A DNA stretch of 64,000 bases, taken from Aliiroseovarius crassostreae (lineage in GTDB: Bacteria > Pseudomonadota > Alphaproteobacteria > Rhodobacterales > Rhodobacteraceae). The stretch spans positions 124,001 to 188,000 of the forward strand of contig NZ_LKBA01000001.1 of assembly GCF_001307765.1 (NCBI RefSeq), in the 5' to 3' direction. The notes beneath the pieces are model-generated. The model was given only the letters and a program-made list of their open reading frames with translations. It was not told where the DNA came from and did not search any database. Every line of letters starts with the position of its first letter. Position 1 is the first letter of the stretch. Shown here in pieces: positions 32,581 to 51,261 of the stretch. A program made the position numbers and the translations under genes.

Positions 32581-33796
32581 TCATACCGCCAGCAACCTCG
32601 GCAGCGGGGCAAGGTTGTTGGCGGCCATGGTCAGGATGAAGCGGGACCGGATGCGTTCGACGCCCCGATACATGGTCTGCGCCATGCCGCCGACGGTTTT
32701 GGCCCATCCGAACGGCTCTTCGATCTTCTTTCGGTGCTGCTGGGATAGAGCGTAGCCCTCGTGCCGGGTGGTTCGGCCATCGATTGCTGAAAATCTCGTT
32801 TTCTGGGCGACATGGGGCGTGACGCAGGCTTGGCGCAGGTCGGACACGAACCCGGCCGCGTCATATCCCTTGTCGGCACCCAGCGTCAGCTGCCGCGTCG
32901 ATCCGGGGGAATGTCGATGGATCATGTCCAGTGCCGCCTTGCGCTCGGCATGACCGTCCATTGCCCGGCAGGCGATTGCGCAGCAATCTGCCGAGAGGGG
33001 CCTGGGTCAGATCACCCTGCACGACCAGCCCGTTGCGGTTCTCCATCAGAGTATGCCCCATGAAGCACAGCATGGCACCCGTGCCGGGGGATTTCTTGTA
33101 AAGGCGCGCATCCGGATCGGTGGTCGAGGCATGCGTCGCGTTCGAGCGCTTCTCGCCCTTGAAGTCGACCTCGGCATTGCGGTGGTGGCGTTTGTTGCGG
33201 GGCATCGGGTCTGTCTCGGCTGGGGTCTCGGAAGGCGCGGTCTCAAGGGGGCCAACAGGCGCGGGCGGATCATCGGGTCCTTCATCGTCAGGCGGAGCGG
33301 CTTCAGCCTTGGGCTGGAAACTTTTCATCGATGCCCAAGCCTTGATGAGCGTTCCATCGACCGAGAAATGTTCGTCCGACAGCAGCGGCGCGACCTCGCG
33401 GTGCGCCAGGATCGCCGCCATTACCTTGCGCGACATTTCCGTGGTCAGAAGCCGGTCGCGGTTCTTGGTGAATACCGTGGGGACCCATACCGGATCGTCG
33501 ATCCCGAGGCCCACAAACCAGCGAAACATCAGGTTGTAATCCATCTGTTCCATCAACTGCCGTTCGGAGCGGATCGAGAACAGGATCTGGAGCAAGCTCG
33601 CCCGGATCAGCCGTTCCGGCGGGATCGAGGGGCGGCCGAAATCCGTGTAAAGCACTTCGAATTCGCCATCGAGGCTGGCAAGCGCGTCATTCACCACCTG
33701 CCGGATCTTGCGCAGCGGGTGTCGCGGCGGGATGCGCTCCTCAAGATCGACATAGCTGAACAGCGACCCGCTCGTCTCGTCCGTTCCGCGCATCAT
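32581..33796 (-). pseudogene. IS5-family transposase, split by a 40 bp insertion
   Basis: Transposase of the DDE type, starting MMRGTDETSGSLFSYVDLEE at 33796 directly after a run of 11 G (on this strand) and carrying SDEHFSVDGTLIKAWASMK with the first catalytic Asp. Reading is intact to GLVVQGDLTQA, where a 40 bp insertion at 32959-32998 shifts the frame. Coding resumes as DGHAERKAALDMI and LGADKGYDAAGFV with the second Asp, and ends with KKIEEPFGWAKTVGG carrying the third acidic residue. Removing the insertion restores one continuous protein, so this insertion is the sole inactivating lesion that I can see. Confidence 0.85.
32959..32999 (+). repeat. 41 bp inserted repeat, copy 1
   Basis: Begins CATTGCCCGGCAG, then ATTGCGCAGCAAT, then CCGAGAGGG. 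It is 40 or 41 bp depending on how the edge base is assigned. It interrupts the IS5 transposase. Two further copies interrupt another transposase gene at 50891 and 51221. Confidence 0.8.
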
Positions 33797-34012
33797 CCCC
33801 CCCCCCCGCCGTAACCATCCCGGATGGTGAATCATGTTCTCAAACCGCTGTCGAGGCAGGACTATTTCAGCAGCCTGTTAGAAACCTCGGGGTCTGGGGC
33901 AGCGCCCCAGCCATGCCCCGAAGATGGCGTAAGACCCTGCTGACCATGCGTCACCTATCTTGCCCTTGCCCCCCTTATTTGCTTGAGTGAGCGGACCTAT
34001 CAGGAGGTCCCC

Positions 34013-35140
34013 ATGTTCCAACCCGTCATCACCGGCACCGGTGTCTTCACCCCCAGCGACATCATCACCAATGAAGAATTGGTTGTGGCCTTCAACGCCT
34101 ATGCCGACCGGGTCAATGCGGAAAACGCCGATGCGATTGCGGCGGGCGACGCAGAACCAATTGGGCATTCCAGCGAAGACTTCATCGTCAATGCGTCAGG
34201 TATTTATCAGCGCTATGTGATGGATAAATCCGGTGTGCTCGACCCGATGGAGATGTGCCCGAAACTGCGTAAACGGGCGGATGATGAACTGGGTATTATG
34301 GCCGAAATGGCGGTGGAGGCCTGTGGCCTGGCACTGCTCAAGGCCGGGGTCCTCGCCGATGAGATTGACCTGGTGATCTGTGCGGCCTCAAACCACGAAC
34401 GCGCCTATCCGGCGATTGCGATTGAGATCCAGCAGGCACTGGGGGCGCAGGGCTTTGCATTTGACATGAACGTCGCCTGTTCCTCGGCCACGTTCGGCAT
34501 TCAGGCGGCGGCAGACATGATCCGCTCGGGGTCTGTGCGCCGTGCGCTGGTGGTCAACCCCGAGATCTGTTCGGCCCATCTGGAATGGCGCGACCGGGAT
34601 TGCCATTTCATCTTCGGCGATGTCTGCACGGCGACCGTTCTGGAACGGAAAGAGGACGCAAAAGGCGCGCATTTCGAGATCCTCGGCACCAAATGCCTGA
34701 CGCAGTTTTCCAACAATATCCGCAACAATAACGGCTTCCTGCGCCGCACCCGCGAAGAGGGCGGCGCGCTGCCTGACCGCCGTGACATGCAGTTCATGCA
34801 AAACGGCCGCAAAGTGTTCAAAGAAGTGCTGCCGATTGTGTCGAAACACATCCTTGGCCACATGGACGAACTGGGCATCGGGCAGGATGATCTGAAACGG
34901 ATCTGGCTGCATCAGGCCAACAAGACGATGAATGATTTCATCGGGAAAAAGGTGCTGGGCCGCGTGCCGGAAGAGGGCGAACAGCCCAACATCCTGCAAG
35001 ACTACGCCAACACCTCCTCAGCAGGGTCGATCATTGCGTTCTCAAAATACTCCGACGATCTGGCAGCAGGGGATACCGGCGTGATCTGTTCGTTTGGGGC
35101 CGGCTATTCTGTGGGGTCGGTTGTGGTGCGACGGGGGTAA
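34013..35140 (+). CDS. FabH-like beta-ketoacyl-ACP synthase III (PA3286-type)
   Basis: Ketosynthase III family protein of 375 aa, longer than housekeeping FabH (about 320 aa). The Cys-His-Asn triad is visible: Cys in NVACSSATFGIQAAA, His in IWLHQANKTMNDFI, Asn in DYANTSSAGSIIAF. The sequence style (SNNIRNNNGFLRR, HLEWRDRDCHFIFGD, SFGAGYSVGSVVVRR) matches the Pseudomonas PA3286 group, reported to condense octanoyl-CoA from beta-oxidation with malonyl-ACP. The ATG at 34013 has CAGGAGGTCCCC directly upstream. A REP-like element and a bidirectional terminator follow. It stands alone; its natural acyl donor is inferred from the family only. Confidence 0.85.
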   Translation: MFQPVITGTGVFTPSDIITNEELVVAFNAYADRVNAENADAIAAGDAEPIGHSSEDFIVNASGIYQRYVMDKSGVLDPMEMCPKLRKRADDELGIMAEMAVEACGLALLKAGVLADEIDLVICAASNHERAYPAIAIEIQQALGAQGFAFDMNVACSSATFGIQAAADMIRSGSVRRALVVNPEICSAHLEWRDRDCHFIFGDVCTATVLERKEDAKGAHFEILGTKCLTQFSNNIRNNNGFLRRTREEGGALPDRRDMQFMQNGRKVFKEVLPIVSKHILGHMDELGIGQDDLKRIWLHQANKTMNDFIGKKVLGRVPEEGEQPNILQDYANTSSAGSIIAFSKYSDDLAAGDTGVICSFGAGYSVGSVVVRRG

Positions 35141-35195
35141 AGGGGCGCTGCCCCTCGGCTAGCGCCTCACCCCGAGGTATTTTCGGCAAGAAAAA
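35141..35195. repeat. REP-like intergenic element
   Basis: Contains GGGGCGCTGCCCCTCGGCTA, then caccccGAGGTATTTTCGGCAAGAAA. It includes a ggggc/gcccc hairpin and lies immediately after the FabH-like stop codon, joining the terminator stem at 35193. Confidence 0.7.
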
Positions 35196-35222
35196 GGGCG
35201 CAGAGAAACCTCCGCGCCCTTT
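35193..35222. terminator. bidirectional terminator between the FabH-like gene and the aldehyde dehydrogenase
   Basis: Stem AAAGGGCGC with GCGCCCTTT (9 bp, perfect) and a 12 nt loop, with A-rich and T-rich flanks on either side. It can end both convergent transcripts. Confidence 0.75.
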
Positions 35223-35242
35223 GCTGTTTCAGAGGGTGAGGT

Positions 35243-36682
35243 TTATCCGTTGAACCAGCCCGACACGGCTTTCACTTCGAGGAAATCCTCGATGCCCAAT
35301 TCGCCGCCTTCACGGCCGATGCCGGATTGTTTGTAACCCCCAAAGGGCGAGCCTGCGGCGCGCGAGGTGCCGTTGGCTTCAACCATGCCAGAGCGCATCT
35401 GGCGGATCACGCGGTTCAGACGCTCGCCGTTTTGGGTCTGCACATAGTTTGTCAGGCCATAGACCGTGTCATTGGCGATCTCGATCGCCTCTTCCTCGGT
35501 GTCAAACGGGATCATGGTCAGGACCGGGCCAAAGATTTCCTCGCGCGCGATGGTCATCTGGTTGTTGGCGTCGGCAAAGACGGTGGGTTTCACAAAATAG
35601 CCTTTGTTCAGACCTTCCGGGCGGCCAAGGCCACCGGCGACAAGGCGCGCGCCTTCGTCGATACCTTTCTGGATCAGGTCCTGGATCTTGCCCCATTGCA
35701 GCTCGCTCACCACCGGGCCAATGTGGCGACCTTCTTTATGCGCCACGTCCACGGCGGTCTTCTCGGCAGTTTCGCGTGCAATCTCAACAGCTTGGTCATA
35801 GATCCCGCGCTGCACCAGCATCCGCGAGGGGGCGTTACAGCTTTGCCCGGTGTTCTGCATCATGTGACGCACTCCGCGCACCACGGCCTTGTCATCAGCG
35901 TCATCAAAGATGATATTGGCACCCTTGCCGCCCAGTTCCAGCGCCACGCGTTTGATCGTGTCGGCGGCGGATTTGGAAATCGCGATGCCCGCGCGGGTGG
36001 AGCCCGTGAAGCTGACCATGTCCACATCCGGGTGCGAGGTGAGCTGTGACCCAACCCCCATCCCGTCACCATTGACCATGTTGTAGACGCCAGCGGGAAC
36101 CCCGGCTTCGTCCATGATCTCGGTCCAGACAATCGACGAGAGCGGCGCCACTTCGGACGGTTTCAACACCATGGTGCAGCCCGCGGCAAGCGCGGCCACC
36201 ACTTTCAGCGCCACCTGGTTCATCGGCCAGTTCCATGGCGTGATCAGCGCGGTCACGCCAACCGGTTCATAGAGCAGCCGGTCATTCGGGGCGTGATCCC
36301 CCAGCATCCGATCAAATTCGAACTCTTTGAAAGCCTCGATGAAATTTGCAATATGCCAGCTGCCGGCCCCCACCTGAGAACTGCGCGACAGGTCAAGAGG
36401 GGCTCCCATTTCCAGGGTCATCGCCTGTGCCAGATCCTCGGCCCGGGCGGCATAGATCTGATGGATCTTTTCGATCAAGGCCAGCCGCTCCTCTTTTGAG
36501 GTCACGCTCCAGCTTTTGAAGGCGTCTTTGGCGGCGGCCACGGCGGCGTCTGTGTCAGCCTGATCACCGAGCGAGATCACCGCGCAGACCTCTTCGGTCG
36601 ACGGGTCGATCACCTCGCAATCATGTGCCTTGGCCGGGGCGACCCATTGGCCGTTGATGTAAAAGTCGCGTTTCTCGATCAT
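35243..36682 (-). CDS. aldehyde dehydrogenase family protein
   Basis: NAD(P)+-dependent aldehyde dehydrogenase of 479 aa. The catalytic Cys lies in QNTGQSCNAPSRMLV, the general base Glu in ALELGGKGANIIFDDADD, the cofactor-binding segment is GSTRAGIAISKSAA, and the C-terminus has GGYKQSGIGREGGELGIEDF. The N-terminal MIEKRDFYINGQWVAPAKAH is a typical start. The substrate cannot be fixed; the neighbouring aromatic catabolic genes make an aromatic or semialdehyde substrate possible. It is a single-gene unit, with a 14 bp palindrome 84 bp upstream as a candidate operator. Confidence 0.92.
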   Translation of the reverse strand: MIEKRDFYINGQWVAPAKAHDCEVIDPSTEEVCAVISLGDQADTDAAVAAAKDAFKSWSVTSKEERLALIEKIHQIYAARAEDLAQAMTLEMGAPLDLSRSSQVGAGSWHIANFIEAFKEFEFDRMLGDHAPNDRLLYEPVGVTALITPWNWPMNQVALKVVAALAAGCTMVLKPSEVAPLSSIVWTEIMDEAGVPAGVYNMVNGDGMGVGSQLTSHPDVDMVSFTGSTRAGIAISKSAADTIKRVALELGGKGANIIFDDADDKAVVRGVRHMMQNTGQSCNAPSRMLVQRGIYDQAVEIARETAEKTAVDVAHKEGRHIGPVVSELQWGKIQDLIQKGIDEGARLVAGGLGRPEGLNKGYFVKPTVFADANNQMTIAREEIFGPVLTMIPFDTEEEAIEIANDTVYGLTNYVQTQNGERLNRVIRQMRSGMVEANGTSRAAGSPFGGYKQSGIGREGGELGIEDFLEVKAVSGWFNG

Positions 36683-36765
36683 ATTCCTGACTCCCTGGAC
36701 GGATTTGGTGGCACTCTTGCATTCAAAAAATCTGGGCGCAAGCCCTGCAGGTCTTGCCTTGAATT

Positions 36766-36779
36766 AATTTGATCAAATT
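36766..36779. promoter_or_regulatory. 14 bp palindrome upstream of the aldehyde dehydrogenase gene
   Basis: AATTTGATCAAATT is a perfect palindrome in an otherwise AT-rich stretch. The 360 bp between this gene and DUF2783 hold no convincing gene; this palindrome and the hairpin at 37013 are the only structures seen. Confidence 0.4.
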
Positions 36780-37012
36780 TTTGAGGAAATGGCAACAGCG
36801 AAGAAAAGGCGGGGAGATCAGGTGTTGTAAGGACCGGGAATGATCACGGTTGAAACCAAAGAATGAGGCGGTGTTCAGCGCGTTGAGAAAATGCAGGGAT
36901 GCTCGGTTTGCCAAACGCAATGTTCCCTCCTGAAAGGCGGATCATCGCGCACAGCCAGAGAGATGCCAAAGCCGCGAACCCTCTGTCTGAAAGGGATATT
37001 TCAGCGGGATGG

Positions 37013-37042
37013 GCGGGGCGCCTGACGCGCCCCGCGGTTTTT
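37013..37042 (+). terminator. hairpin followed by T-run
   Basis: Perfect 9 bp stem GCGGGGCGC/GCGCCCCGC with a 5 nt loop, then cggttttttt. The T-run is on the plus strand, although no plus-strand gene is evident upstream; on the minus strand the hairpin follows the DUF2783 stop without a T-run. Confidence 0.5.
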
Positions 37043-37246
37043 TTATTTCAAGGCAGATTTGGCCGCGTTGATTGCTGCCGACAGCACATTGCGGTCCCCG
37101 ACATGGTTGGCCAGGACCAGAACAATCCGCGCATTCAGCGCGTCGCTATCCTCTTTCGACAGCCCTTCATGAGCGGTCAGAAGCTCGGCATAAAAATCGT
37201 CTGCGCCGTCGATATTCGGGGTCAGGATCAGTTGATTCTCGGTCAT
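37043..37246 (-). CDS. DUF2783 family protein
   Basis: Small acidic protein of 67 aa (MTENQLILTPNIDGADDFYA) with GLSKEDSDALNARIVLVLAN and HVGDRNVLSAAINAAKSAL. It belongs to the DUF2783 group, which commonly accompanies FAD-dependent aromatic hydroxylases of the MhpA type, and here it begins 5 bp after the stop of such a gene. Function unknown; a partner or stabiliser role for the hydroxylase is an inference from the constant association. Its size and position in the operon make it a real gene. Confidence 0.8.
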   Translation of the reverse strand: MTENQLILTPNIDGADDFYAELLTAHEGLSKEDSDALNARIVLVLANHVGDRNVLSAAINAAKSALK

Positions 37247-37251
37247 GTCAC

Positions 37252-38862
37252 TTACTCCTTGCCAGTGGCGCGGCGAATGGCGGCGCGGAACAGATTGTCG
37301 TCATAGCTGGGGCGACGGGCGGCCACGTGTTGGTCCGGACGGATCAGGTAGACGCCGCTGGGCGCATCGCCCAGATAGCGGGCTTTGAGGGCCCCGGATT
37401 TGTCATCCCTGACCGACAGGGCCAGCCGGGTGACTTCAATCCCGTCTTCCTCGATCACATCCGGCGCATCTGCGTCGATGGTCAGCAGGGTGAACTTGCC
37501 ACCCAGTTTCGGCAGCAAAAAAGCCTCCCCCAGCGGCACATCCGGGCAAGGAGAGCCGGGGCGGGTGCGCTCCGGGCCATCCAGCGCATCGGACGAGTTC
37601 AGCGGCGAGCCATCATAGGTGCAGGGCACCGAGAGGCGCCCGGAATTGACCAGCGGACGGGCAAATTCAAACTGTTCCGACAGGTCCAGCACCGCATCCC
37701 GCAGAATGCGGCTCATCTCGGATTTCGGTGTGATGAAATCGGTGGAGCGGGAGGAATTCAGGATGTTCTCATCCGCCCCATGCACCCGTTCCATGTCATA
37801 GCTGTCAAGCAGGCTTTCGGGGGCTTTGCCCTCCATCACCAGTTTCAGTTTCCAGCCCAGGTTGTCAGTGTCCTGCAGGCCGGAATTTGCCCCGCGCGCA
37901 CCAAAGGGCGAGACCTGGTGGGCGGCGTCCCCGGCAAACAGCACGCGGCCGTGGCGGAATTTTTCCATCCGGCGGCATTGGAACGTGTAGATCGACACCC
38001 ATTCCAGCTCAAACTTCACATCCTCGCCCAGCATCGCCTTGAGGCGCGGGATGACGTTTTCCGGTTTCTTCTCTTCTTCCTTGTCGATGTCCCAGCCCAG
38101 TTGCAGGTCAATGCGCCAGACATTGTCGGGCTGTTTGTGCAGAAGGGCGGATTGACCTCGGTTGAAGGGCGGGTCGAACCAGAACCAGCGTTCGGTCGGG
38201 AACCCGGCTTCCATGATCACATCGGCAATCAGGAAGTTGTCTTCAAAGACGCGGCCCACAAAGTCGAGCCCCAGCATCTTGCGCGCAGGCGATCCGGCCC
38301 CGTCACAGGGCACCAGCCATTCCGCTTCGAGGTTATACGGCCCGTCCGGCGTGTCGATTTCCAGCGTGACATGATCGTCATGCGTGCCGATCGCGGTGAC
38401 CTTGTTGTTGCCGCGAATTTCGATTGGCGCGCCGGCGGCTTCCAGCTCGCGCACGCGGTTTACCAGATATTCTTCGAAGTAATATTGCTGCAGGTTGATG
38501 AAGGCCGGGCGTTCGTGGCCTTCTTCCGGCAACAGGTTGAACTGATACACCTCGCGGTCGTCAAAAAACACCTTGCCGATGTTCCATTCGACGCCCTTGT
38601 CGACCATCGGCTGGCCACATCCCAGACGGTCGAGGATTTCCAGCGGACGCTTGGCGTAGCACACCGCGCGCGACCCGAAAGAGACCTTGTCATTGTCATC
38701 AAGGATCACCACCTCGATGCCTTCCTGGGCCATTTCGATGCCCATGGCGAGGCCGATGGGGCCGGCGCCGATCACCACGACCTTGCGGCGCACCTGCGTG
38801 TCGGCGTCCTGATCGGGGCTCCGCTTATAGGCATAAAGCGGGGTTTCAAAGATTTTTGTCAT
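37252..38862 (-). CDS. FAD-dependent aromatic monooxygenase (MhpA-like)
   Basis: Class A flavoprotein hydroxylase of 536 aa. The FAD-binding Rossmann motif is VVVIGAGPIGLAMGIEMAQE, the second FAD/NAD(P)H motif is WLVPCDGAGSPARKMLGLDF, and the ribose-binding GD motif is RVLFAGDAAHQVSPFGARGA. A C-terminal thioredoxin-like region follows, as in MhpA/PheA hydroxylases. It resembles 3-(3-hydroxyphenyl)propionate hydroxylases. The ATG at 38862 is preceded by GAGGAGGAACGAC. Gene order is MBL hydrolase, this gene, DUF2783. With hmgA-maiA-fahA close by, a substrate that yields homogentisate (such as a hydroxyphenylacetate) is plausible but not shown. Confidence 0.85.
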   Translation of the reverse strand: MTKIFETPLYAYKRSPDQDADTQVRRKVVVIGAGPIGLAMGIEMAQEGIEVVILDDNDKVSFGSRAVCYAKRPLEILDRLGCGQPMVDKGVEWNIGKVFFDDREVYQFNLLPEEGHERPAFINLQQYYFEEYLVNRVRELEAAGAPIEIRGNNKVTAIGTHDDHVTLEIDTPDGPYNLEAEWLVPCDGAGSPARKMLGLDFVGRVFEDNFLIADVIMEAGFPTERWFWFDPPFNRGQSALLHKQPDNVWRIDLQLGWDIDKEEEKKPENVIPRLKAMLGEDVKFELEWVSIYTFQCRRMEKFRHGRVLFAGDAAHQVSPFGARGANSGLQDTDNLGWKLKLVMEGKAPESLLDSYDMERVHGADENILNSSRSTDFITPKSEMSRILRDAVLDLSEQFEFARPLVNSGRLSVPCTYDGSPLNSSDALDGPERTRPGSPCPDVPLGEAFLLPKLGGKFTLLTIDADAPDVIEEDGIEVTRLALSVRDDKSGALKARYLGDAPSGVYLIRPDQHVAARRPSYDDNLFRAAIRRATGKE

Positions 38863-38978
38863 GTCGTTCCTCCTCCGACAAGAGACCGGCCAGGAGCGCT
38901 GGTGCGGCCATGGGTTCGGCGCGTTTCTTGCGGACCAGCGCCCCCTCCCGGGCGCGGGTCCATGTTGTGATGTCGGGT

Positions 38979-39010
38979 GCCTCCGGCGGGGATATTTTCA
39001 ACCAGAAAAT
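38979..39010. repeat. REP-like fragment between MBL and monooxygenase genes
   Basis: GCCTCCGGCGGGGATATTTT then caaccagaaaa. It is a partial relative of the REP-like elements at 4645 and 35141. The 167 bp gap otherwise holds only the ribosome binding site of the monooxygenase gene. Confidence 0.5.
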
Positions 39011-39029
39011 AAGGGGCCGGGGCGGCCGA

Positions 39030-39980
39030 TCAGCCCTGCAGCGCCTCCCACATTTCCAGATCGCGCTGGGCGGTCCAGATGCGGGGGGTGTCGATGCCGC
39101 GGGCCTCGTCATAGGCGCGGGCGACGTTGAAGGGCAGGCAGTGTTCGTAGATCGCGTAGTCGGCGAATTTCGGGTCACATTCGGCGCGCACCGCATCCCA
39201 GGCTTCTTTGAGCGTGCCATTGCGCGCGGCAACCTTGGCGGCGGGGCGGTAGGTGCTTTCGACGAAATCGCGGGTGTTCTCAATCGCGGCGTTGACCATG
39301 TCTTTGCCGACGAGGGCATCCCCCCGACCCGGCGCAATCGCGTCCACGTCGAAGGCGGCGATATTATCGAGCGTGTCGCCCCAATCGCTGAAATGCCCGT
39401 CCCCGCAATAGCAGGCCGAGTGGTATTCGACGATGTCGCCGGTGAACATCACGTTTTCATCCGGCACATGGATCACGATGTCACCCGCCGTGTGGGCGCG
39501 GCCCAGATGCATCAGGTCAATGCGGCGGTTGCCGAGATAGACGGTCATGTCGTCCGAGAAGGTGGTGGTGGGCCAGGTCAGGCCGGGAATGCTCTCATGC
39601 CCTTCAAACAGGCGCGGGAAGCGTTGAAACTCGCTGTCCCAGTCTTCCTGACCGCGTTCCACGACCATCGCGCGGGCCGTGTCGCCCATGATGATCTGAT
39701 CGGCGCCAAAGGCCGATGCGCCCAGCACGCGAACGGCGTGATAGTGGGTCAGCACCACGTGGGAGATCGGCTTGTCCGTCACCGAACGCACGCATTCGAT
39801 CACCTTGTTTGCAAGGCGCGGTGTGGCCTGCGCCTCAACGATCATCACGCTGTCATCGCCGATGATCACGCCGGAGTTCGGGTCGCCTTCGGCGGTGAAG
39901 GCATAGATGTCGCGCCCCACCTCTTCAAAGGTGATCTTCTTCTCAGTCATGTCCCCTTGGGACGCAAAAGCTTTTGCCAT
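39030..39980 (-). CDS. MBL-fold metallo-hydrolase with altered metal site
   Basis: Metallo-beta-lactamase-fold protein of 316 aa. The first metal motif, usually HxHxDH, reads THYHAVRVLGAS, so the Asp and third His of the canonical motif are replaced by Val and Arg. Later ligands look intact: LMHLGRAHTAGDIVIHV supplies His and MFTGDIVEYHS the bridging Asp. The start is the ATG at 39980 (MAKAFASQG), with AAGGAAGGAAAACC upstream. It precedes the aromatic monooxygenase on the same strand and probably belongs to that transcript. The hydrolysed substrate is unknown; a lactone or thioester from the aromatic route is a guess. Confidence 0.8.
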   Translation of the reverse strand: MAKAFASQGDMTEKKITFEEVGRDIYAFTAEGDPNSGVIIGDDSVMIVEAQATPRLANKVIECVRSVTDKPISHVVLTHYHAVRVLGASAFGADQIIMGDTARAMVVERGQEDWDSEFQRFPRLFEGHESIPGLTWPTTTFSDDMTVYLGNRRIDLMHLGRAHTAGDIVIHVPDENVMFTGDIVEYHSACYCGDGHFSDWGDTLDNIAAFDVDAIAPGRGDALVGKDMVNAAIENTRDFVESTYRPAAKVAARNGTLKEAWDAVRAECDPKFADYAIYEHCLPFNVARAYDEARGIDTPRIWTAQRDLEMWEALQG

Positions 39981-40032
39981 GGTTGGGTTTTCCTTCCTAG
40001 ACGCAGACAGAATAACGTGATTCTGTTCCTGC

Positions 40033-40599
40033 ATGTTTGATCGACGTCATATGCCCTACTGGGCCGTTTTCTTTGTGTTTGTCGCCACATTGGCGGCGCT
40101 TCTGTGGATGGGGCGCAATTTGTATTGCCCCTGCGGGTATGTGCTGTTGTGGTATTCCGGCGATGACAGCGGGCAGGGCTCGCAGCATTTTTTGGACTGG
40201 TACGCGCCCAGCCACCTGATCCACGGCTTTCTGTTTTACGGCCTGACCTTCCTGACCATGCGCCGCTTTGCGCTGGGCTGGCGGCTGTTGGTGGCAACCC
40301 TGATCGAAGGCGCGTGGGAGGTGGCCGAGAACACCGAGGCGGTGATCAACCGATATCGCGAGTTCACCGTGTCCGGCGAGTATTGGGGCGATGCGGTGAT
40401 CAACTCGGGCGCGGATATGTTGGTGATGTTTCTTGGCTTCTGGCTGGCGCTGCGCCTGCCGATTTGGGCCTCGGTTGCCATTATAGTCGGCTTCGAGCTG
40501 CTGACCACCTGGCTTATTCGCGATGGGTTGGCGCTCAATATCATCATGCTTTTGATGCCCTCCGAGGCAATCCTCGAATGGCAATCGGCCGCAGGATGA
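40033..40599 (+). CDS. DUF2585 (UPF0314) membrane protein
   Basis: Integral membrane protein of 188 aa with about five hydrophobic segments, starting with YWAVFFVFVATLAALLWMG. It carries the family marks RNLYCPCGYVLLWYSGDDSG, WYAPSHLIHGFLFYGL, LLVATLIEGAWEVAENTEAV and EYWGDAVINSGADM. The family is widespread in alphaproteobacteria and has no known function. It is divergent from the MBL gene with only about 52 bp between starts, and convergent with fahA, so it is a single-gene unit unrelated in strand to the aromatic genes. Confidence 0.88.
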   Translation: MFDRRHMPYWAVFFVFVATLAALLWMGRNLYCPCGYVLLWYSGDDSGQGSQHFLDWYAPSHLIHGFLFYGLTFLTMRRFALGWRLLVATLIEGAWEVAENTEAVINRYREFTVSGEYWGDAVINSGADMLVMFLGFWLALRLPIWASVAIIVGFELLTTWLIRDGLALNIIMLLMPSEAILEWQSAAG

Positions 40600-40616
40600 T
40601 CTGAGCGCCAGCGCCA

Positions 40617-41876: not shown

Positions 41877-41883
41877 GATGTCC

Positions 41884-42519: not shown

Positions 42520-42532
42520 CACGTCTCTCCCC

Positions 42533-43885
42533 TTATTTCTCACCCGATGTGCCGTCGAATTTCTTCTCAAGGCTGTCCCAGCAGTCGATATAATCGTCCT
42601 GCAACGGGGCCTCTTTGGCGGCAAATTCGGTCAGGTGTTGCGGGAAGCGGGTTTCGAACATGAACGACATGGTGTTGTCGAGCTTTTCGGGTTTCAGATC
42701 CGCATTGGACGCGCCTTCAAACGCATCCCGATCCGGCCCGTGCGGCAGCATCATGTTGTGAAGGCTGATCCCGCCCGGCACAAAGCCCTGCGGTTTGGCG
42801 TCATACTGGCCGTAAATATTGCCCATCAGCTCGGACATGATGTTCTTGTGATACCAGGGCGGACGGAAGGTGTTTTCGGCCACCATCCAGCGTTCACGGA
42901 ACAGGACAAAGTCGATATTGGCGGTGCCCGGGTGGCCTGACGGGGCGGTCAGGACCGTAAAGATCGACGGATCCGGGTGGTCAAACAGGATCGCCCCAAC
43001 CGGGCAATAGGTGCGCAGGTCGTATTTGTAAGGGGCATAGTTGCCATGCCACGCCACCACGTCCAGCGGCGATTGGCCGATCTCGGTCCTGTGGAACTGG
43101 CCACACCATTTTACGGTGATGGTGGACGGCACCTCACGGTCTTCAAATGCCGCCACCGGCGCCTTGAAATCACGCGGATTGGCCATGCAGTTTGCCCCGA
43201 TAGGCCCGCGTCCCGGCAGTTCAAACTTCTGACCATAGTTCTCGCAGACAAAGCCGCGCGCTGGCCCCTCGACCAGTTCCACCCGATAGACCAGCCCGCG
43301 TGGAATGATCCCGATCTCTTTCGGTTCCAGATCAATCACGCCAAGTTCGGTGTAAAAGCGCAGGCGGCCTTCCTGCGGAACCACCAGCAACTCGCTGTCG
43401 GCCGAGAAGAAGTAATCATCCACCATCGATTCGGTGACCAGATAGATATGCGAGGCCATGCCAACCTGCGTGTTCACATCCCCTGCCGTGGTCATGGTGC
43501 GCATGCCGGTGATCCAGTTCAGCCCCTCTGTCGCCTCAACCGGGTTCCAGCGATATTGGCCCAGTGAGATCACATCCGGGTCAATGCAGGGGGCGGATTT
43601 CCAATATGGCATGTCCACTTTGGTATAGCGGGCAGAATGCTTCACCGACGGGCGGATCCGGTAACACCACGTGCGTTCCGGCGGGTTGGCGGTAAAGGCT
43701 GTGCCCGAAAGCTGCTCGCCATAAAGACCGTAATTGCATTTCTGCGGAGAGTTCATGCCCTGCGGCAACGCGCCGGGCAGGGCCTCCGTTTCAAAGTCAT
43801 TGGCCCAGCCGGGCATGTATTCGACATTGGTGCCGGTATTCGACACTGCGCGCTGCATGTCACGCTGGCCATTGTGATTGGTCAT
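42533..43885 (-). CDS. hmgA: homogentisate 1,2-dioxygenase
   Basis: Fe(II) dioxygenase of 450 aa that opens the ring of homogentisate to 4-maleylacetoacetate in tyrosine and phenylacetate-type catabolism. Recognisable segments are [78 protein letters not shown] and, for the iron-binding C-terminal domain, [20 protein letters not shown] with [20 protein letters not shown]. The start is the ATG at 43885. First gene of the hmgA-maiA-fahA run; a TTGCA-AA-TGCAA palindrome about 65 bp upstream is a candidate operator. Confidence 0.97.
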
Positions 43886-43950
43886 TCCGTTTCCCTGTTG
43901 CTGCCGGTCGTCGCGAACCGGTCGATCCTTTCGCTCGTTAATTAATATTG

Positions 43951-43962
43951 TTGCAAATGCAA
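43951..43962. promoter_or_regulatory. palindrome upstream of hmgA
   Basis: TTGCAAATGCAA, arms TTGCA and TGCAA around AA, in an AT-rich segment with TTAATTAATATTG next to it. It may bind an IclR-, MarR- or BkdR-type regulator of homogentisate genes. It lies between hmgA and the divergent flagellar operon and could also influence motB. Confidence 0.35.
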
Positions 43963-44108
43963 TGATGTCAAGAAAAACACCCCGTCACAAAATGCTGGAC
44001 CAGACCGTCGCCCGGCAGCGACCGGAAAATCCCGACAATTTGACAGGTTAAGCGGGGATAAACACCTCTTTGCTATTCCTGTTTTCGGGTAAAAAATGAG
44101 GTGGTGGT

Positions 44109-44948
44109 ATGAGCGCAAATGGACAAGCGCCAATAATCATCAAGAAGGTGAAGAAGGGCGGTGGTGATGGACACCACGGCGGCGCATGGAAAGTGGCTTA
44201 TGCCGACTTCGTGACCGCGATGATGGCCTTCTTTCTCTTGATGTGGCTGTTGAATGCAACAACGGAAAAACAACGCAAGGGGATCGCGGATTATTTCAGC
44301 CCGACCATCCCGATCAATCGGGTGTCTGGCGGCGGTTCCGGCTCTTTCGGGGGGGATTCGATCTTTTCCGAGGAAACGCTGGCCCAATCCGGTAATGGGG
44401 GGCTACCGCGCAACCCAACCGAGAAACGGGCGGGAGAGAGTTCCGGCAGGAGTGAGGTGGATGATTCGGTCCACGACAGCAAAGAAATCGAAAAGATCGA
44501 GGAACTTCTCAGCGGGAAATCCGGTGAAAGCATGGTCAGTGAGGCAACCCGGCGTCATATCCTGACCCGCGTGACAGATGAGGGCCTGCTGATTGAGCTG
44601 TTTGATATCGAAGGCGACCCCCTGTTTGAGCCAGGAACCGGCACGCCGACCCCGGTGATGCAGGAGTTGGCAGGGGTGATGGCGCGGATCTTCAGGCTGG
44701 TGGAAAACGAGATTGCCATTGGGGGACATGTTCGTGCGCAACCCGTTGTTGTTGCTAAAAATACGGCCTGGGACCTGTCCGGGGATCGAGCCACGGCCAT
44801 GCGCGAATTGCTCGAGGCGCAGCAGGTGGAAACTGGAAGGGTCCAACGCGTGACCGGCTATGCCGATCGCAAGCCGGCAGCGCGCAACCCGATGGCCCTG
44901 CGCAACAATCGGGTGGAACTGACATTGCTGCGGAAGAAAACTCCCTGA
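44109..44948 (+). CDS. motB: flagellar motor stator protein MotB
   Basis: Stator subunit of 279 aa. The N-terminal cytoplasmic part is basic (IIIKKVKKGGGDGHHGGAWK) and leads into one membrane helix, YADFVTAMMAFFLLMWLLNA, whose Asp is the proton- or sodium-coupling residue. A periplasmic linker rich in Ser and Gly (VSGGGSGSFGGDS) precedes the OmpA/MotB peptidoglycan-binding domain, with IGGHVRAQPVV and WDLSGDRATAMRELLEA. MotA is not next to it in this window. It begins the plus-strand run motB, flgE, flgK, flgL, flgI. Confidence 0.93.
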   Translation: MSANGQAPIIIKKVKKGGGDGHHGGAWKVAYADFVTAMMAFFLLMWLLNATTEKQRKGIADYFSPTIPINRVSGGGSGSFGGDSIFSEETLAQSGNGGLPRNPTEKRAGESSGRSEVDDSVHDSKEIEKIEELLSGKSGESMVSEATRRHILTRVTDEGLLIELFDIEGDPLFEPGTGTPTPVMQELAGVMARIFRLVENEIAIGGHVRAQPVVVAKNTAWDLSGDRATAMRELLEAQQVETGRVQRVTGYADRKPAARNPMALRNNRVELTLLRKKTP

Positions 44949-45061
44949 GGGTGGCCGGTGCTGCGCAGCAATTAAATTCGGATTGTAGCTGTTAGGCCGC
45001 TGTTAAGGGGTCGGGCGCTATGGTCCGGGTTGACTTACCTGATGCAGCAGAAAGGCGCACC

Positions 45062-46375
45062 ATGACTATTTCTTCCTCGCTGAGTGCCGGGGTTGCCGGT
45101 TTGAGTTCAAACGCGACCCGTCTGGCGACGATTTCCGACAATATCGCCAACTCCTCGACCTTCGGGTACAAGCGGGCGACCGCGGATTTCCAAAGTATGG
45201 TGATCGGCGGAACCGCCGGGGCCGGGACTTATTCGGCGGGCGGTGTCCGCGTGTCGACCCAGCGGTTGATTGATGAAACTGGTCCGTTGATTTCGACATC
45301 AAACCCCCTCGACATCGCCATTGGTGGCAGCGGCATGTTGCCCGTGACACAGGAAGTGTTTTTGGGAAGCGGGACTGGGGATCGTCCGATGATGATGACC
45401 ACGACCGGTTCGTTCAGGACTGACAGTGAAGGCGTGTTGAAAACGGAAACCGGTCTGGTGCTGCTGGGATGGCCAGCAGATGCAGACGGAAATGTCGGGA
45501 CTTTCCCACGCGATTCCGGAGCCGGGCTTGAACCAGTTGTGATCAATACCAACCAGACTGCCGGTGACCCGACAACCCGCCTGAAACTCGGGGTCAACCT
45601 CCCGGCGGTGGATACCGAAGTAGGTGCAGCAGGCGATACGCTGCCCTTGTCCGTTGAATATTTCGGCAACCTCGGGACCTCCGAAACATTGGACTTCTCT
45701 TTCACGCCGGTTGTGCCCGCCTCGGGAACCGCGCCATCCAATCAATGGACCATGGTGATCCGGGACAGCGCCGGCGGCAATAACGTCATTGGGGAATACA
45801 CGCTGACATTTGATGACAGCCGTGCTGACGGGGGGACTTTGAACTCGGTTGCGGTGGTGTCCGGCGGTGCCTATGACGCTGCAACAGGGGAACTTGCCCT
45901 GACCGTTGATGGTGGCCCGCTGTCGCTTACGATCGGAAAAATCGGTGACCCGAACGGGCTCACACAGCTTTCGGACAGCTTTGCGCCCACCTCCATTTCC
46001 AAAGACGGATCCCCCGTCGGAAATCTGACCGGGGTCGAGATTGATGAACATGGGTTCCTGAAAGCCACGTATGACACGGGCTTCACCCGGACAATCTATC
46101 AGGTGCCACTGGTGGATGTACCAAACCCAAATGGTCTGAAATCCCTGTCCAACCAAGCTTATCAGGCGTCCCCCGAGTCCGGTTCCTTCTTCATGTGGGA
46201 TGCAGGTGACGGCCCGACAGGTGAAGTGATTGGTTTTGCGCGCGAAGGGTCCACCACGGATGTGGCAGGTGAACTGACTTCACTGATCCAGACCCAGCGT
46301 GCCTATAGTTCCAATGCCAAAGTCATTCAGACAGTTGATGAAATGTTGCAGGAGACCACCAATATCAAACGGTAA
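45062..46375 (+). CDS. flgE: flagellar hook protein FlgE
   Basis: Hook protein of 437 aa, the building block of the flexible hook. The N-terminal rod/hook signature is SSLSAGVAGLSSNATRLATI followed by SDNIANSSTFGYKRATADF, and the C-terminal helix reads GELTSLIQTQRAYSSNAKVI then QTVDEMLQETTNI. The middle is a beta-rich, variable D1/D2 region. The ATG at 45062 is preceded by AAGGCGCACC; the longer reading has no family support. It is followed by flgK after 29 bp, with a CGGAGG ribosome binding site for that gene. Confidence 0.95.
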   Translation: MTISSSLSAGVAGLSSNATRLATISDNIANSSTFGYKRATADFQSMVIGGTAGAGTYSAGGVRVSTQRLIDETGPLISTSNPLDIAIGGSGMLPVTQEVFLGSGTGDRPMMMTTTGSFRTDSEGVLKTETGLVLLGWPADADGNVGTFPRDSGAGLEPVVINTNQTAGDPTTRLKLGVNLPAVDTEVGAAGDTLPLSVEYFGNLGTSETLDFSFTPVVPASGTAPSNQWTMVIRDSAGGNNVIGEYTLTFDDSRADGGTLNSVAVVSGGAYDAATGELALTVDGGPLSLTIGKIGDPNGLTQLSDSFAPTSISKDGSPVGNLTGVEIDEHGFLKATYDTGFTRTIYQVPLVDVPNPNGLKSLSNQAYQASPESGSFFMWDAGDGPTGEVIGFAREGSTTDVAGELTSLIQTQRAYSSNAKVIQTVDEMLQETTNIKR

Positions 46376-46404
46376 CTTCCGGGGTGGTCATCGGAGGTTG
46401 AGAT

Positions 46405-47862
46405 ATGAGTATCACAAGCACCATGCACAACGCTCTTTCAGGGCTAAGTGCGCAATCTCGGGCGGCAAGCCTTGTGTCGTCCAATGTGGCCAATGCCATG
46501 ACCGAGGGATACGCCCCTCGGTCATTGGAGCTTTCTTCGCGAACACTCGCTGGAGCCGGAGCCGGTGTGTTCGTCGAGGGGGTGACGCGACATACCGACG
46601 AAGTGCTTTTGGGGGATCGCCGGCTGACCGATGCGGCCGTAGGGTACGACAGTACGACTTCTGCATTCCTCAAGTCATTGGAAATGGCATTGGGAACGCC
46701 GGATGACCCCGGTTCGCTTTCCGGTCGCATAGCGAAACTTGATGCGGCACTGGTGGAAGCAGCCGCGCAGCCTGGCAGTGAGGCGCGCTTGTCCGCGGTG
46801 GTGGATGCGGCAAACAACGTGGCAACGAATCTCAACAATGTTTCCGACAAGGTGCAGGAGCAACGTTTGGAGGCTGACCAGAATATCGCGCTGCAGGTTG
46901 AGAAGTTGAATACGGGCCTCAAACAGGTCGAAACCTTGAATGCCAAGATCCAACAGGCGCGTACTCAAGGTGTCGATCCTTCGGGCCTTATGGATATACG
47001 CCAGAAAACCATTGACGAAATGTCGTCAATCCTGCCGCTAAAACAACTGCCAAGAGAGAATGGAAAAGTGGCGCTGGTAACCACCGGCGGTGCCATTGTT
47101 CTGGAAGGGAAAGCGGCTCAGTTTGAATTCTCGACCGTCAATTTGATTGTTCCCGAAATGACCCAGGCAAGCGGAGCATTGTCTGGTCTGACAATGAATG
47201 GTCAACCCCTGCGCACAAGCGGTGATCGAAGCCCGATCGCCGGCGGGTCGCTGGCGGCGGAGTTTGAGGTCAGGGATGAGCTCGCCGTGGATGCCCAGCA
47301 ACGACTGGATGGTTTTGCCCGCGATCTGATGGAAAGGTTCGAGGATCCAGCGGTGGATGCTACGCGGGCCGTGGGGGATCCAGGATTGTTCACTGACAAT
47401 GGAAATGCCCTTGATCTCGCAACGGAACTTGGCCTGTCAGCACGTATTTCCCTACACGCGGCTGTTGACCCCACACAAGGGGGGGCTGTGTGGCGCATTC
47501 GTGATGGGTTGGGGGCAGTAGCACAGGGAGAGGCTGGAAATGCCACTCTCATCAACGAACTTGCTGATGCTATGGGCCGGGCAAAGGCACCAACCTCGGG
47601 TGGTTTCCTGGGCGCGGCGCGATCATCGGCGGGCTTGGCGGCAGATATGCTGTCCATCGTTGGGGCCGATTTGAAAGAGGCGGAAGCACAATACAGTTTC
47701 TCGTCGGCACAAAACAGTTCCCTCAAGCAAATGGAGTTGAGCAAGGGGGTGGATACGGATGCAGAAATGCAAAAACTCATGATGATTGAGCAAGCCTATG
47801 CCGCCAATGCGCGGGTGATCACCGCGGCGGATGAGATGATCCAGGCATTGCTGAGTATCTAA
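46405..47862 (+). CDS. flgK: flagellar hook-associated protein 1
   Basis: Hook-filament junction protein of 485 aa. N-terminal segment MSITSTMHNALSGLSAQSRA and VSSNVANAMTEGYAPRSLEL, with the VFVEGVTRHTDEVL region, and C-terminal helix MMIEQAYAANARVITAADEM. It joins FlgL to form the junction between hook and filament. Co-linear with flgE and flgL, 15 bp before flgL. Length is on the short side for FlgK, as is common in alphaproteobacteria, which often lack much of the D2/D3 insertion. Confidence 0.93.
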   Translation: MSITSTMHNALSGLSAQSRAASLVSSNVANAMTEGYAPRSLELSSRTLAGAGAGVFVEGVTRHTDEVLLGDRRLTDAAVGYDSTTSAFLKSLEMALGTPDDPGSLSGRIAKLDAALVEAAAQPGSEARLSAVVDAANNVATNLNNVSDKVQEQRLEADQNIALQVEKLNTGLKQVETLNAKIQQARTQGVDPSGLMDIRQKTIDEMSSILPLKQLPRENGKVALVTTGGAIVLEGKAAQFEFSTVNLIVPEMTQASGALSGLTMNGQPLRTSGDRSPIAGGSLAAEFEVRDELAVDAQQRLDGFARDLMERFEDPAVDATRAVGDPGLFTDNGNALDLATELGLSARISLHAAVDPTQGGAVWRIRDGLGAVAQGEAGNATLINELADAMGRAKAPTSGGFLGAARSSAGLAADMLSIVGADLKEAEAQYSFSSAQNSSLKQMELSKGVDTDAEMQKLMMIEQAYAANARVITAADEMIQALLSI

Positions 47863-47877
47863 CGAGGAGGCACCGAA

Positions 47878-48885
47878 ATGTTTACGACCTTTGGTGATTT
47901 GGCCACCGCGTTCCACTCTCGCTCACAGGGGGCGAAGCTCCGGGCAGAGATGAGCCGTCTGGGTGTAGAGCTGACAACGGGTCTGAAGACAGACATAAGC
48001 CGTGCCGTGTCTGGTGATTTTGGCCCGATTGCAGGAATAGAGCACGATCTGCAAACCCTGCTGGCATATAAAACCGCTACGGACGAAGCGGCTATCTTGG
48101 CGAACACGACCCAGATCGCGCTCGAAACCATTCAAAGCCAGGGTGAAGACCTGGTGAGCGGAATGCTGACGGCGACGAGCTCGAAAAATGTTACCATGGT
48201 GCAAACAACGGCAATGGATGCAAAGCAGAAATTTAACTCTGCCGTTTCGCAGCTGAATACCGATGTCATGGGGCGCTCCCTGTTTGCTGGTGCCGCAACG
48301 GATAAGGCCCCGTTGGTCAGTGGCGAAGAGATGCTCGAAGCAATTATGGTTGCAATTGCAAGTGACACCAATGCGGCCGACATCTCTGCTAGTATTGATG
48401 CCTGGTTTGATGATCCCGCTGGGGGATTCGCTACCATGGCCTATCTCGGCTCTGACAATCCGATGGGGCCAATTCGGTTGGGGAATGGTGAGGTCGCTGA
48501 TCTGACAATTCGCGCTAATGACCAGTCTATCAAGGACGTTTTGAAAGCAACTGTCAAAAGTGCAGTGATGGCTGAGGGGGCGCTGAATGGCAGTGTCGAG
48601 CAGCAGATTGAGTTGACGAAGATTGCGGCGCAGGATCTTTTGAGCGCAAATGACGGGCTTGTGCTTGCACGTGCGGGGATCGGTGCTGTTGAAGCGCGCG
48701 TGGATGCTGCCCAAACCCGAAATGAGGCTGAGAAGTCAGCCCTTGAAATTACACGCTCAAATCTCATTTCGGCAGATCCCTACGATACTGCGACAGAGCT
48801 TCAGGCGGCCTATTCCCAACTGGAAAGCCTCTACACTGTTACGGCGCGTATGTCGAAACTGAATTTCACGGATTTCATGCGATGA
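47878..48885 (+). CDS. flgL: flagellar hook-associated protein 3
   Basis: Flagellin-like hook-filament junction protein of 335 aa. The N-terminal helix (FHSRSQGAKLRAEMSRLGVE and LTTGLKTDISRAVSGDFGP) and the C-terminal helix (SNLISADPYDTATELQAAYS with SQLESLYTVTARMSKLNFTD) are diagnostic of the FlgL/flagellin fold. The gene is preceded by CGAGGAGG and ends in an ATGA overlap with flgI. Base composition is a little AT-richer than the metabolic genes of the window. Confidence 0.93.
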   Translation: MFTTFGDLATAFHSRSQGAKLRAEMSRLGVELTTGLKTDISRAVSGDFGPIAGIEHDLQTLLAYKTATDEAAILANTTQIALETIQSQGEDLVSGMLTATSSKNVTMVQTTAMDAKQKFNSAVSQLNTDVMGRSLFAGAATDKAPLVSGEEMLEAIMVAIASDTNAADISASIDAWFDDPAGGFATMAYLGSDNPMGPIRLGNGEVADLTIRANDQSIKDVLKATVKSAVMAEGALNGSVEQQIELTKIAAQDLLSANDGLVLARAGIGAVEARVDAAQTRNEAEKSALEITRSNLISADPYDTATELQAAYSQLESLYTVTARMSKLNFTDFMR

Positions 48886-49985
48886 AACAGATACTTGCAG
48901 CTATTTTTCTCCTCCTCGTCTCAGCCATGTCGATGCAGGCTAATACGATCCGAATTAAGGATCTTGTTGAATTTGATGGCGTTCGCGGAAATGACCTGAT
49001 CGGCTATGGGCTGGTTGTCGGGTTGAATGGAACGGGGGATGGCATTCGAAATGCTCCGTTTACCGAAGACATCATGTCCAATATTTTGGAACGCCTCGGT
49101 GTGAACATTACGGGTGAGCAGTTTCGGCCCAAGAATGTTGCAGCAGTGTTTGTCACAGCCGCATTGCCGCCATTTGCACGGGCAGGATCAAAGATTGACG
49201 TGACGGTTTCGGCAATTGGGGATGCTAAAAGCTTACTGGGGGGGACACTGATTATGACCCCCCTGAATGCGGCAGATGGGGAAATTTATGCGGTCAGCCA
49301 GGGAACGGTGATTGCAGGTGGTGCCTCGGCTGAGGGGGATGGTGCGAAAGTGGTTCAAGGTGTTCCCACCAGTGGCGTTATTCCAGCCGGTGCGCGGGTC
49401 GAACGTGAACTGGATTTTGATTTTACCAAACTTAAATCTATCCGCCTCGCTTTGCGTACTCCAGATTTCACAACAGCCGAGCGGATTGAGAATGTGATCA
49501 ACCAAAAGTATGGACGGGTGGTTTCCAGAATGCTTGATGGTGGCACTGTGATTGTAGACATCAGCAAAACGCGCGCGTTGTCGCCTGCTCACGCGCTGGG
49601 CGACATTGAAAACCTCAGGGTCGAGCCAGAGCGCAAGGCCCGTGTTGTGGTGGACCAGCGGTCTGGTACGATTGTGATGGGGGAAGACGTGCGGATCAGC
49701 AGAGTTGCGGTGTCACAGGGCAACCTCACGCTGCGTATTCAAGAGACGCCTTTGGTTGTGCAGCCGAACCCATTTACTGATGGGCAGGCCATTGTTGTAC
49801 CTCGGACAGATGCAAATATTGTGGAGGAGCCCGGTGTTGGCCTTGCGGAAGTGGATGGGGGGACATCTCTGTCAGAAGTTATCGCTGGGCTTAACGCATT
49901 GGGCGTTTCCCCAAGGGATATGATAGATATCTTGAAAAGTATCAAAGCTGCAGGGGCTCTTCATGCAGATTTCGTGGTCCGTTGA
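48882..49985 (+). CDS. flgI: flagellar P-ring protein
   Basis: Periplasmic ring protein of 367 aa around the flagellar rod. A signal peptide (ILAAIFLLLVSAMSMQA) precedes the family start NTIRIKDLVEFDGVRGNDLI and GYGLVVGLNGTGDG. Further marks are FRPKNVAAVFVTAALPPFAR and the C-terminal LSEVIAGLNALGVSPRDMID with ILKSIKAAGALHADFVVR. The ATG overlaps the flgL stop. It is the last gene of the plus-strand flagellar run and is directly followed by IS debris. Confidence 0.96.
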   Translation: MKQILAAIFLLLVSAMSMQANTIRIKDLVEFDGVRGNDLIGYGLVVGLNGTGDGIRNAPFTEDIMSNILERLGVNITGEQFRPKNVAAVFVTAALPPFARAGSKIDVTVSAIGDAKSLLGGTLIMTPLNAADGEIYAVSQGTVIAGGASAEGDGAKVVQGVPTSGVIPAGARVERELDFDFTKLKSIRLALRTPDFTTAERIENVINQKYGRVVSRMLDGGTVIVDISKTRALSPAHALGDIENLRVEPERKARVVVDQRSGTIVMGEDVRISRVAVSQGNLTLRIQETPLVVQPNPFTDGQAIVVPRTDANIVEEPGVGLAEVDGGTSLSEVIAGLNALGVSPRDMIDILKSIKAAGALHADFVVR

Positions 49986-50022
49986 CACTACGGACCACCG
50001 GTGGGGTAATTCCCCCGAAATT

Positions 50023-50056
50023 TAAAGCGTTTCGACTTTTCCCTGTCTCAGGTGAA
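50023..50056 (+). repeat. half of a CTAAAGCGTT-family element
   Basis: TAAAGCGTTTCGACTTTTCC then ctgtctcaggtgaa matches the left arm and middle of the element at 15956-16006. The right arm is absent, probably because the IS3-type element inserted here. Confidence 0.6.
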
Positions 50057-50125
50057 CGTAGAGTAGCCCCCTGGAAGTGGTCCAGCAACTGGGATAGTTT
50101 TGTCCCGCAAGTTGGAGGATCAGCG

Positions 50126-50401
50126 ATTGCTGGAAAACGAGAGAAGCCCGAAGAGATTGTATCGAAGCTTCGGCAAGTTGAAGTTCTGCAAGTGCAAGGG
50201 ATGACGATTTCTGAGGCGGTGCGCCAGATCGGCGTGACGCAACAGGCGTTTTATCGATGGCGCAAGCTGTATGGCGGCATGGGTCGGTCTCAGCTCCAGC
50301 GTTTGAAGGAGCTTGAGAAGGAGAACCAACGGCTGCGGCGGGTGGTGTCCGCTCTGACATTGGACAAGCTCATATTGACTGAAGCAGCGAAGGGAGTTTG
50401 A
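50126..50401 (+). pseudogene. IS3-family transposase OrfA remnant
   Basis: Encodes about 90 residues of an IS3-family (IS407/IS511-like) OrfA: GKREKPEEIVSKLRQVEVLQ, the helix-turn-helix TISEAVRQIGVTQQAFYRWR and the leucine-zipper-like LQRLKELEKENQRLRRVVSA. A GGAGG ribosome binding site sits at the right place, but the expected ATG is ATT (50126-50128). The C-terminus ends KGV rather than the usual KGNF, and no OrfB follows: 67 bp later the next IS begins. A 9 bp perfect hairpin GAACGATCC/GGATCGTTC lies at 50420-50440. The element is clearly truncated and inactive. Confidence 0.7.
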
Positions 50402-50890
50402 ACCGGTTCATGAAGTGATGAACGATCCAGTGGATCGTTCAAGCGCACAAACGGGCGGAGCCCCTAGGCTCAGGCCCCATTAATCGGCTTGAGATCGCAT
50501 TGGTCGCATGCTTCACCCCCCCCCAGACTTTCAGGGGGTATCATGAGCAATCTTTTTTGGCTGACCGACGAACAGATGGCGCGGCTGCGACCGTTTTTTC
50601 CAAGAGCCATGGCAAGCCGAGGGTTGATGATCGGCGGGTGTTGAGTGGGATAATCTTCATCAATCGCAATGGCTTACGGTGGTGCGATGCGCCCAGGGAA
50701 TACGGCCCGCCGAAGACGCTCTATAATCGCTGGAGACGTTGGAGCGAGATGGGTGTTTTTGCCAGGATCTTTGAAGGGTTGGCTGCGGAAGCGACGGACC
50801 TGACGACGATCATGATCGATGCGACCTATCTGAAAGCCCATCGTACAGCGTCCAGTCTGGGCGTCAAAAAGGGGGGCGTGGGCGCCTGAT

Positions 50891-50931
50891 CACTGCCCGG
50901 CAGGGTATTGCGCAGCAATGTCCCGAGAGGG
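50891..50931 (+). repeat. 41 bp inserted repeat, copy 2
   Basis: Starts CACTGCCCGGCAG, core ATTGCGCAGCAAT, end CCGAGAGGG. It interrupts the element A transposase just before the RTKGG codons. It differs from copy 3 (as reverse complement) at three positions. Confidence 0.85.
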
Positions 50932-51220
50932 AGGGCGCACCAAAGGCGGTATGAACACCAAATTGCATGCCATCACCGACACCAACGGGCGGCCAATCCG
51001 GTTCTTCATGTCGGCGGGCCAGATCAGCGACTATACAGGGGCGGCGGCGCTCCTGGGCGACATGCCCAAAGCCCAGGGGCTTCTGGGGGACCGCGGCTAT
51101 GACGCCGACTGGTTCCGAGAAGCCTTGAAAGACAAGGGGATCAGGCCCTGCATCCCGGGCCGAAAGGCACGAAAGAAACCCATCAAATACGACAAACGCC
51201 GCTACAAGCGCCGCAATCGC

Positions 51221-51261
51221 CCCTCTCGTGACATTGCTGCGCAATGCACTGCCGGGCAGTG
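51221..51261 (-). repeat. 41 bp inserted repeat, copy 3 (inverted)
   Basis: On the minus strand it begins CACTGCCCGGCAG, has the core ATTGCGCAGCAAT and ends CGAGAGGG. It interrupts the same transposase gene between codons for RRNR and IEIMF, in the opposite orientation to copy 2, 330 bp away. Confidence 0.85.

Follow-up and report, generated by a model that had tools for sequence, protein, structure and literature searches.

What are three closely related 40–41-bp sequences doing inside transposase genes in a 64,000-nucleotide stretch of the Aliiroseovarius crassostreae genome (contig NZ_LKBA01000001.1, positions 124,001 to 188,000; hereafter the window)? We find that they belong to a family of short, folded inserts spread across the Rhodobacteraceae and strongly concentrated in the transposase genes of many unrelated families of insertion sequences (IS). 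A preliminary description of the window, made from its letters alone, had reported the three copies within two transposases and no others, and all of this holds: the copies lie where it placed them (Table 1), score 68.7–70.1 bits with a covariance model of the family, and are joined by no fourth copy at an expectation value (E) of 0.05 in the window. The host of copy 1 combines DUF772 and DDE_Tnp_1_6 (top NCBIfam match IS5_4, IS1182 next), while copies 2 and 3 interrupt, in opposite orientations, a single DUF4096 plus DDE_Tnp_1_2 protein (IS5_3). They are also real insertions, as had been claimed. Deleting 32959–32998 (40 bp) restores the host frame of copy 1 as a 418-amino acid (aa) open frame, and deleting 41 bp each restores frame or homology at copies 2 and 3. 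Because the 40-bp deletion already suffices at copy 1, the last G of that copy may belong to the target instead of the element.

Table 1. Positions of the inserts, their host genes and the related motif near tuf-like genes
Feature	Position	Strand	Remarks
Hairpin insert copy 1	32959..32999	+	P2 GGCG..C-T-GCC
Hairpin insert copy 2	50891..50931	+	P2 GGGT..G-T-CCC; sense in host gene
Hairpin insert copy 3	51221..51261	-	P2 GTGC..G-T-CAC; antisense, host gene as for copy 2
Host IS of copy 1	32456..33877	-	IS5_4/IS1182-like transposase; extent set by identity to other copies
Host transposase gene of copies 2 and 3	50543..51381	+	IS5_3, IS427-like group
tuf-side motif	L326:4824, L327:5846, L327:6004 (contig C5)		P1-GGCA/GACA-hairpin-GAGA-P1' fold

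First, the family is defined by a fold more than by a sequence. Its members, 36–45 nt long, share the layout 5'-CRYTG-P1(3 bp)-GGCA-[P2 hairpin]-GAGA-P1'-3', in which the P2 hairpin is variable in sequence and frequently carries a bulged base, and the GGCA/GAGA foot is kept in nearly all copies. In 90 readily aligned copies, the variable triplets flanking ATTGCGCAGCAAT pair mutually, with the bulged base on the 3' side. The consensus first proposed for the window copies matches exactly once four N stand between GCAAT and CGAGAGG, but its literal pattern, which omits those bases, matches nothing even at 3 mismatches; likewise, the ATTGC/GCAAT stem that was noted does pair, but forms only the tip of a longer stem (9 bp, one bulged base), to which an outer CCC/GGG helix closing the GGCA/GAGA internal loop must be added. 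Covariation bears out the structural conservation that the preliminary description had proposed to look for, with two-sided changes at all 12 modelled pairs and 204 cells versus 51 in shuffles (150 of 161 matches, 55 loci; the other 11 were left out of this alignment, A2), whereas single-sequence folding energies fall only modestly below those of shuffles (z -1.6 to -1.8 for the three + strands). As the covariation alignment was fitted to its model and leans towards it, a free-helix descriptor was also used, and gave 253 matches in 1.05 Mb of loci versus 2 in the reversed sequence, and 20 in 1.264 Mb of the A. crassostreae genome (reversed, 0; one mononucleotide shuffle, 1). It recovers more than eight P1 types, including CCC/GGG, ACC/GGT, CCT/AGG, GCT/AGC, CAC/GTG and GTC/GAC. 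Across the helices, 50 G-T pairs stand against 16 A-C mismatches, and the folded strand is therefore the one reading CRYTG-P1-GGCA-P2-GAGA-P1'. With E allowed up to 1, a model of the family, R1, returns 209 matches from 100 loci, many with entirely different hairpins (7 of the 209 were left out of the per-locus table of inserts), and no Rfam 15 family matches the element at E up to 1 in 5 loci.

The notion of a miniature mobile repeat, one of the readings first offered, is borne out, and the family extends far beyond the window. At least 117 stretches were retrieved by an exact-core scan of species genomes, nearly all from Rhodobacteraceae or Rhodobacterales, and the A. crassostreae genome alone holds 27 matches at E below 1e-3 with a broad model, R2. 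In a Rhodobacteraceae sample drawn nearly always as one genome per genus, with at most 16 candidates scored per genome, 166 of 394 genomes have at least one match and 33 of 394 the exact core, and a class-wide sample yields 4 positives in 142: A. crassostreae, one more member of the Rhodobacteraceae and two genomes of other families. Among the matches listed there are also elements in one Enemella evansiae record (L057) and in records of a Rhizobiaceae group (L082, L106), which reflect either transfer with an IS or contamination.

Second, where do the copies sit? A pool of 171 loci, in which 315 elements occupy 188 distinct insertion sites, was compared to reference transposases that had been checked by Pfam, candidate frames without a Pfam match being excluded. 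With a stricter first set of 20 references and their close kin, 121 of the 188 sites were assigned to transposases; with a widened set, transposase-like sequence runs across 145 sites and adjoins another 17 (162/188), lies within 150 bp of 9 more and is absent at the remaining 17. For some of these last 17, Pfam places pieces in DDE_3 (L037, and weakly L257) or Transposase_mut (L089, L107, L118), and a few more resemble transposases by eye, so that some ten sites are left without a host assignment. Control points with the matching motif, put through the same test, are transposase-like in 126 of 890 cases; the share is 72 of 110 for points no more than 500 bp from an element and 14 of 473 for those more than 2 kb away. 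For insertion sites never used as search seeds, the figure is 72 of 81. The hosts include IS3, several IS5 groups, IS21, IS66, IS91, IS110, IS256, IS1380 and others (the labels IS481 and IS630, where used, are our reading of Pfam matches). The concentration in transposase genes, conjectured from three copies, is thus strong and takes in many unrelated IS families, and the even spread outside transposases that might have undone it did not appear. The exceptions, besides the unassigned sites, are few: one element at L272:1223-1263 lies in a RelE-type toxin gene with a helix-turn-helix (HTH) antitoxin gene next to it, and L179, in the A. crassostreae genome, is a weak intergenic relative. The surroundings of the former look prophage-like to us. 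Small intergenic palindromes loosely like the element hairpin occur in the A. crassostreae genome at L309:19370-19470 and at L179.

Third, the manner of insertion is precise and repetitive. Deletion of 40 or 41 bp gives uninterrupted homology in the cases checked, and no target duplication is therefore visible; 47 of the 145 spanning alignments are wholly ungapped, and the third G belongs to the element in some copies and to the target in others. The left flank favours a YYRTC-like motif (of 186 sites, 127 have T at -2, 149 have C at -1 and 92 have RTC). More than one insert is present in 55 of 100 loci, with orientations mixed within single loci, the extreme being an IS3-type locus (L085) that packs six elements with six different P2 hairpins into about 800 bp. 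Deleting three to four inserts produces single long frames in L071 (504 aa, an IS66 TnpC), L025 (251 aa, IS3), L088 and L074. In 42 same-site clusters with diverged members, transposases differing by 20–30% have been struck at like positions. Homing with co-conversion was considered and rejected for these clusters: on either side of the insert, divergence of the flanks is already about 20% in the first 20 bp and climbs to about 30%, so that recurrent insertion at like sites is likelier. An exception occurs inside the A. crassostreae genome, where window positions 50790–50940 (copy 2) and locus L154 come from IS5 copies about 79% identical, yet share a nearly identical stretch round the insert, mainly on its left side, which looks as if moved by gene conversion. 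Near the start of L138 (contig C14 of A. crassostreae), there is a junction of the kind that a deletion running from one inverted element of the window IS5 copy to the other would leave.

Fourth, what becomes of an IS once it is interrupted? The IS that hosts copy 1 carries the insert at the identical site in 8 of 8 close copies (95–100% identity; the genome is a draft and a clean copy may be missing), and the differences among these copies fall in recombinant-looking blocks. Related transposases free of the insert do exist, and a relative with 71% identity spans the site and has no element match there. In genome G075, assembled in 6 contigs, four copies of one IS3-type IS carry 5, 5, 4 and 3 inserts, and no insert-free copy was found. 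Both cases lead to the conclusion that interruption does not stop an IS from multiplying, for which help in trans is the simplest account; in G075 such help is likelier than removal from RNA or bypass because orfA of this IS also reads frameshifted.

What process would place so many precise inserts in transposase genes? We favour, with a probability of roughly 0.45, a family of non-autonomous, 36–45-nt Rhodobacteraceae elements that move as a folded single strand and parasitise IS DNA by way of a trans-acting enzyme. The strand would be DNA or, less likely, RNA, and the enzyme would recognise P1, the internal loop or P2. Specificity would most likely arise because transposition exposes IS bodies as single strands or as DNA undergoing recombination. 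The IS would then serve as tolerant, mobile carriers, and interrupted copies could keep moving, probably on transposase from other copies. Several observations weigh against this proposal. The analysis turned up no mobiliser; none of the loci retrieved holds a longer element with the same ends (whole genomes were not searched for such elements); 9 of 15 element-rich genomes lack the Y1 transposase domain Y1_Tnp; and neither a fresh insertion nor an excision between otherwise identical copies was observed. Single-strand exposure predicts a strand bias for some IS types, and none is seen (IS91, 3 and 3). Three loci (L034, L048, L085) give no single clean frame after insert removal, and the transposase reference set, after two rounds of widening, may include antisense frames.

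An alternative that we consider unlikely, though it fares best among the rivals, is that insertion is undirected and loss precise, and that inserts persist where a harmful selfish gene (a transposase or toxin) is silenced and cells losing the insert are penalised. The copy that disrupts the RelE-type toxin gene is what this would lead one to expect, and precise insertion would permit precise loss; but neutral intergenic sites are nearly empty, and further inserts, up to the sixth, bring no added value once an IS is dead, at odds with the many loci that hold more than one. Less probable is a host defence in which hairpins are written into transposase genes of whatever family and transposons thereby disabled. 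It would account for a specificity blind to family, for repeated hits per gene and for unbiased orientation, but interrupted IS still multiply and no candidate system came to light; Argonaute as a guide was set aside, since Piwi occurs in none of 15 element-rich genomes (taken from the 20 that had 11 matches or more) and in 1 of 14 element-free ones (taken from 20 listed as matchless).

It is also conceivable, if improbable, that the element belongs to, or is related to, the repetitive extragenic palindromic (REP) sequences and is mobilised by Y1 transposases of the REP-associated or IS200 type. According to the parts of PMC3733652 consulted, REPs are short bacterial hairpin repeats with a GTAG or CGTC tag, the CGTC type being common in alpha-Proteobacteria. 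The element resembles them as a small, bulged hairpin with variable stem and loop on fixed foot sequences, and Y1_Tnp is associated with its presence (6 of 15 element-rich versus 0 of 14 element-free genomes). Its foot, in contrast, is a GGCA/GAGA internal loop plus the outer P1, where REPs, as far as those parts describe them, have the tag and a CCA tail, and it resides mainly in or abutting transposase genes, unlike REPs, which the same text places mostly between genes (PMC3733652). No linked Y1 gene was seen, the Y1 domain is lacking in the nine element-rich genomes already mentioned, and the Y1 genes of A. crassostreae read, in our assessment, as IS200 type and not as REP-associated tyrosine transposases (RAYT), with end hairpins different from the element; a Y1 transposase as mobiliser is accordingly weakened. 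IS200 ends as a source of the hairpin were rejected on that difference in sequence. Just upstream of an IS200 tnpA remnant in A. crassostreae (L140, contig C20, about 427400) lies another palindromic insert of about 60–66 bp, which is absent from two sister copies. Least probable is an intron-like or bypassed insert, removed from RNA (as the preliminary description had entertained) or skipped by the ribosome, which would suit the exact restoration of frames and the continued mobility of IS such as the eight close copies with the copy 1 insert, but which, splicing and translational bypass alike, we set aside on orientation, since only one strand folds and elements are found 55 times sense and 66 times antisense in the stricter set (n=121; 73 and 89 in the widened set), mixed within single loci, and the frameshifted orfA in G075 speaks for help in trans.

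An autonomous long version was set aside as a candidate among the loci retrieved, where orphan 5' halves proved to be variants or chance. In A. crassostreae, four matches of the descriptor lack the CRYTG tail and have a GGY-type P1. Each of two tuf (EF-Tu)-like genes has one directly on its 3' side, with another some 158 bp beyond the first in one case, and the fourth lies 3' of a ferredoxin reductase-like gene (both gene names are our reading). No Rfam 15 family matches this tuf-side motif at E up to 1 in 3 stretches. The element may imitate or descend from a host 3'-untranslated region (3'-UTR) motif. It is a long shot that a dedicated Rhodobacteraceae system writes several hairpins per transposase gene irrespective of family and so silences mobile DNA, with its hairpin taken from a host 3'-UTR motif like that beside the tuf-like genes, as short interspersed nuclear elements (SINEs) are from host RNAs.

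How does the family relate to other known elements? Rickettsia palindromic elements are likewise palindromic inserts within coding genes for which we know of no machinery, but they decorate ordinary proteins, whereas the present element, mostly 40–41 bp long, shifts the frame and sits in transposases. Miniature inverted-repeat transposable elements (MITEs) are, like it, small, non-autonomous and spread among many loci, whereas here no target duplication is seen, and no ends shared with a known IS appeared among the loci retrieved. The group II intron RmInt1, resident in ISRm2011-2, is reportedly a structured element able to use single-stranded target DNA; ours is structured and IS-resident too, but, at 40 nt, has neither ribozyme nor reverse transcriptase and is found in many IS families and both orientations. 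The ends of IS200/IS605 form a one-strand hairpin with an extra-helical base, with a left-side target motif and no target duplication, all of which the element shares; it differs as a single hairpin without a transposase gene, in genomes that often lack Y1. The element can be filed under the broad kind of short palindromic mobile repeats, set apart from REPs, MITEs and introns because each fails a tested feature. No description of it was found in those portions of the literature that were examined, and the family is apparently unrecognised hitherto. To our knowledge, no other mobile element picks out transposase genes from families as unrelated as these (DDE, DEDD, HUH-Y2, tyrosine integrase, AAA+ helper).

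Finally, annotation readily overlooks the interrupted genes: the feature given is "none" at most of 40 matches listed. The address of the family in transposase genes suggests a parasite of mobile DNA, or a brake on it. Truly directed insertion would mean that something in the cell can tell transposons from other DNA; if selection is responsible instead, the inserts mark genes that harm their host. Either way, they account for many transposase pseudogenes in Rhodobacteraceae.

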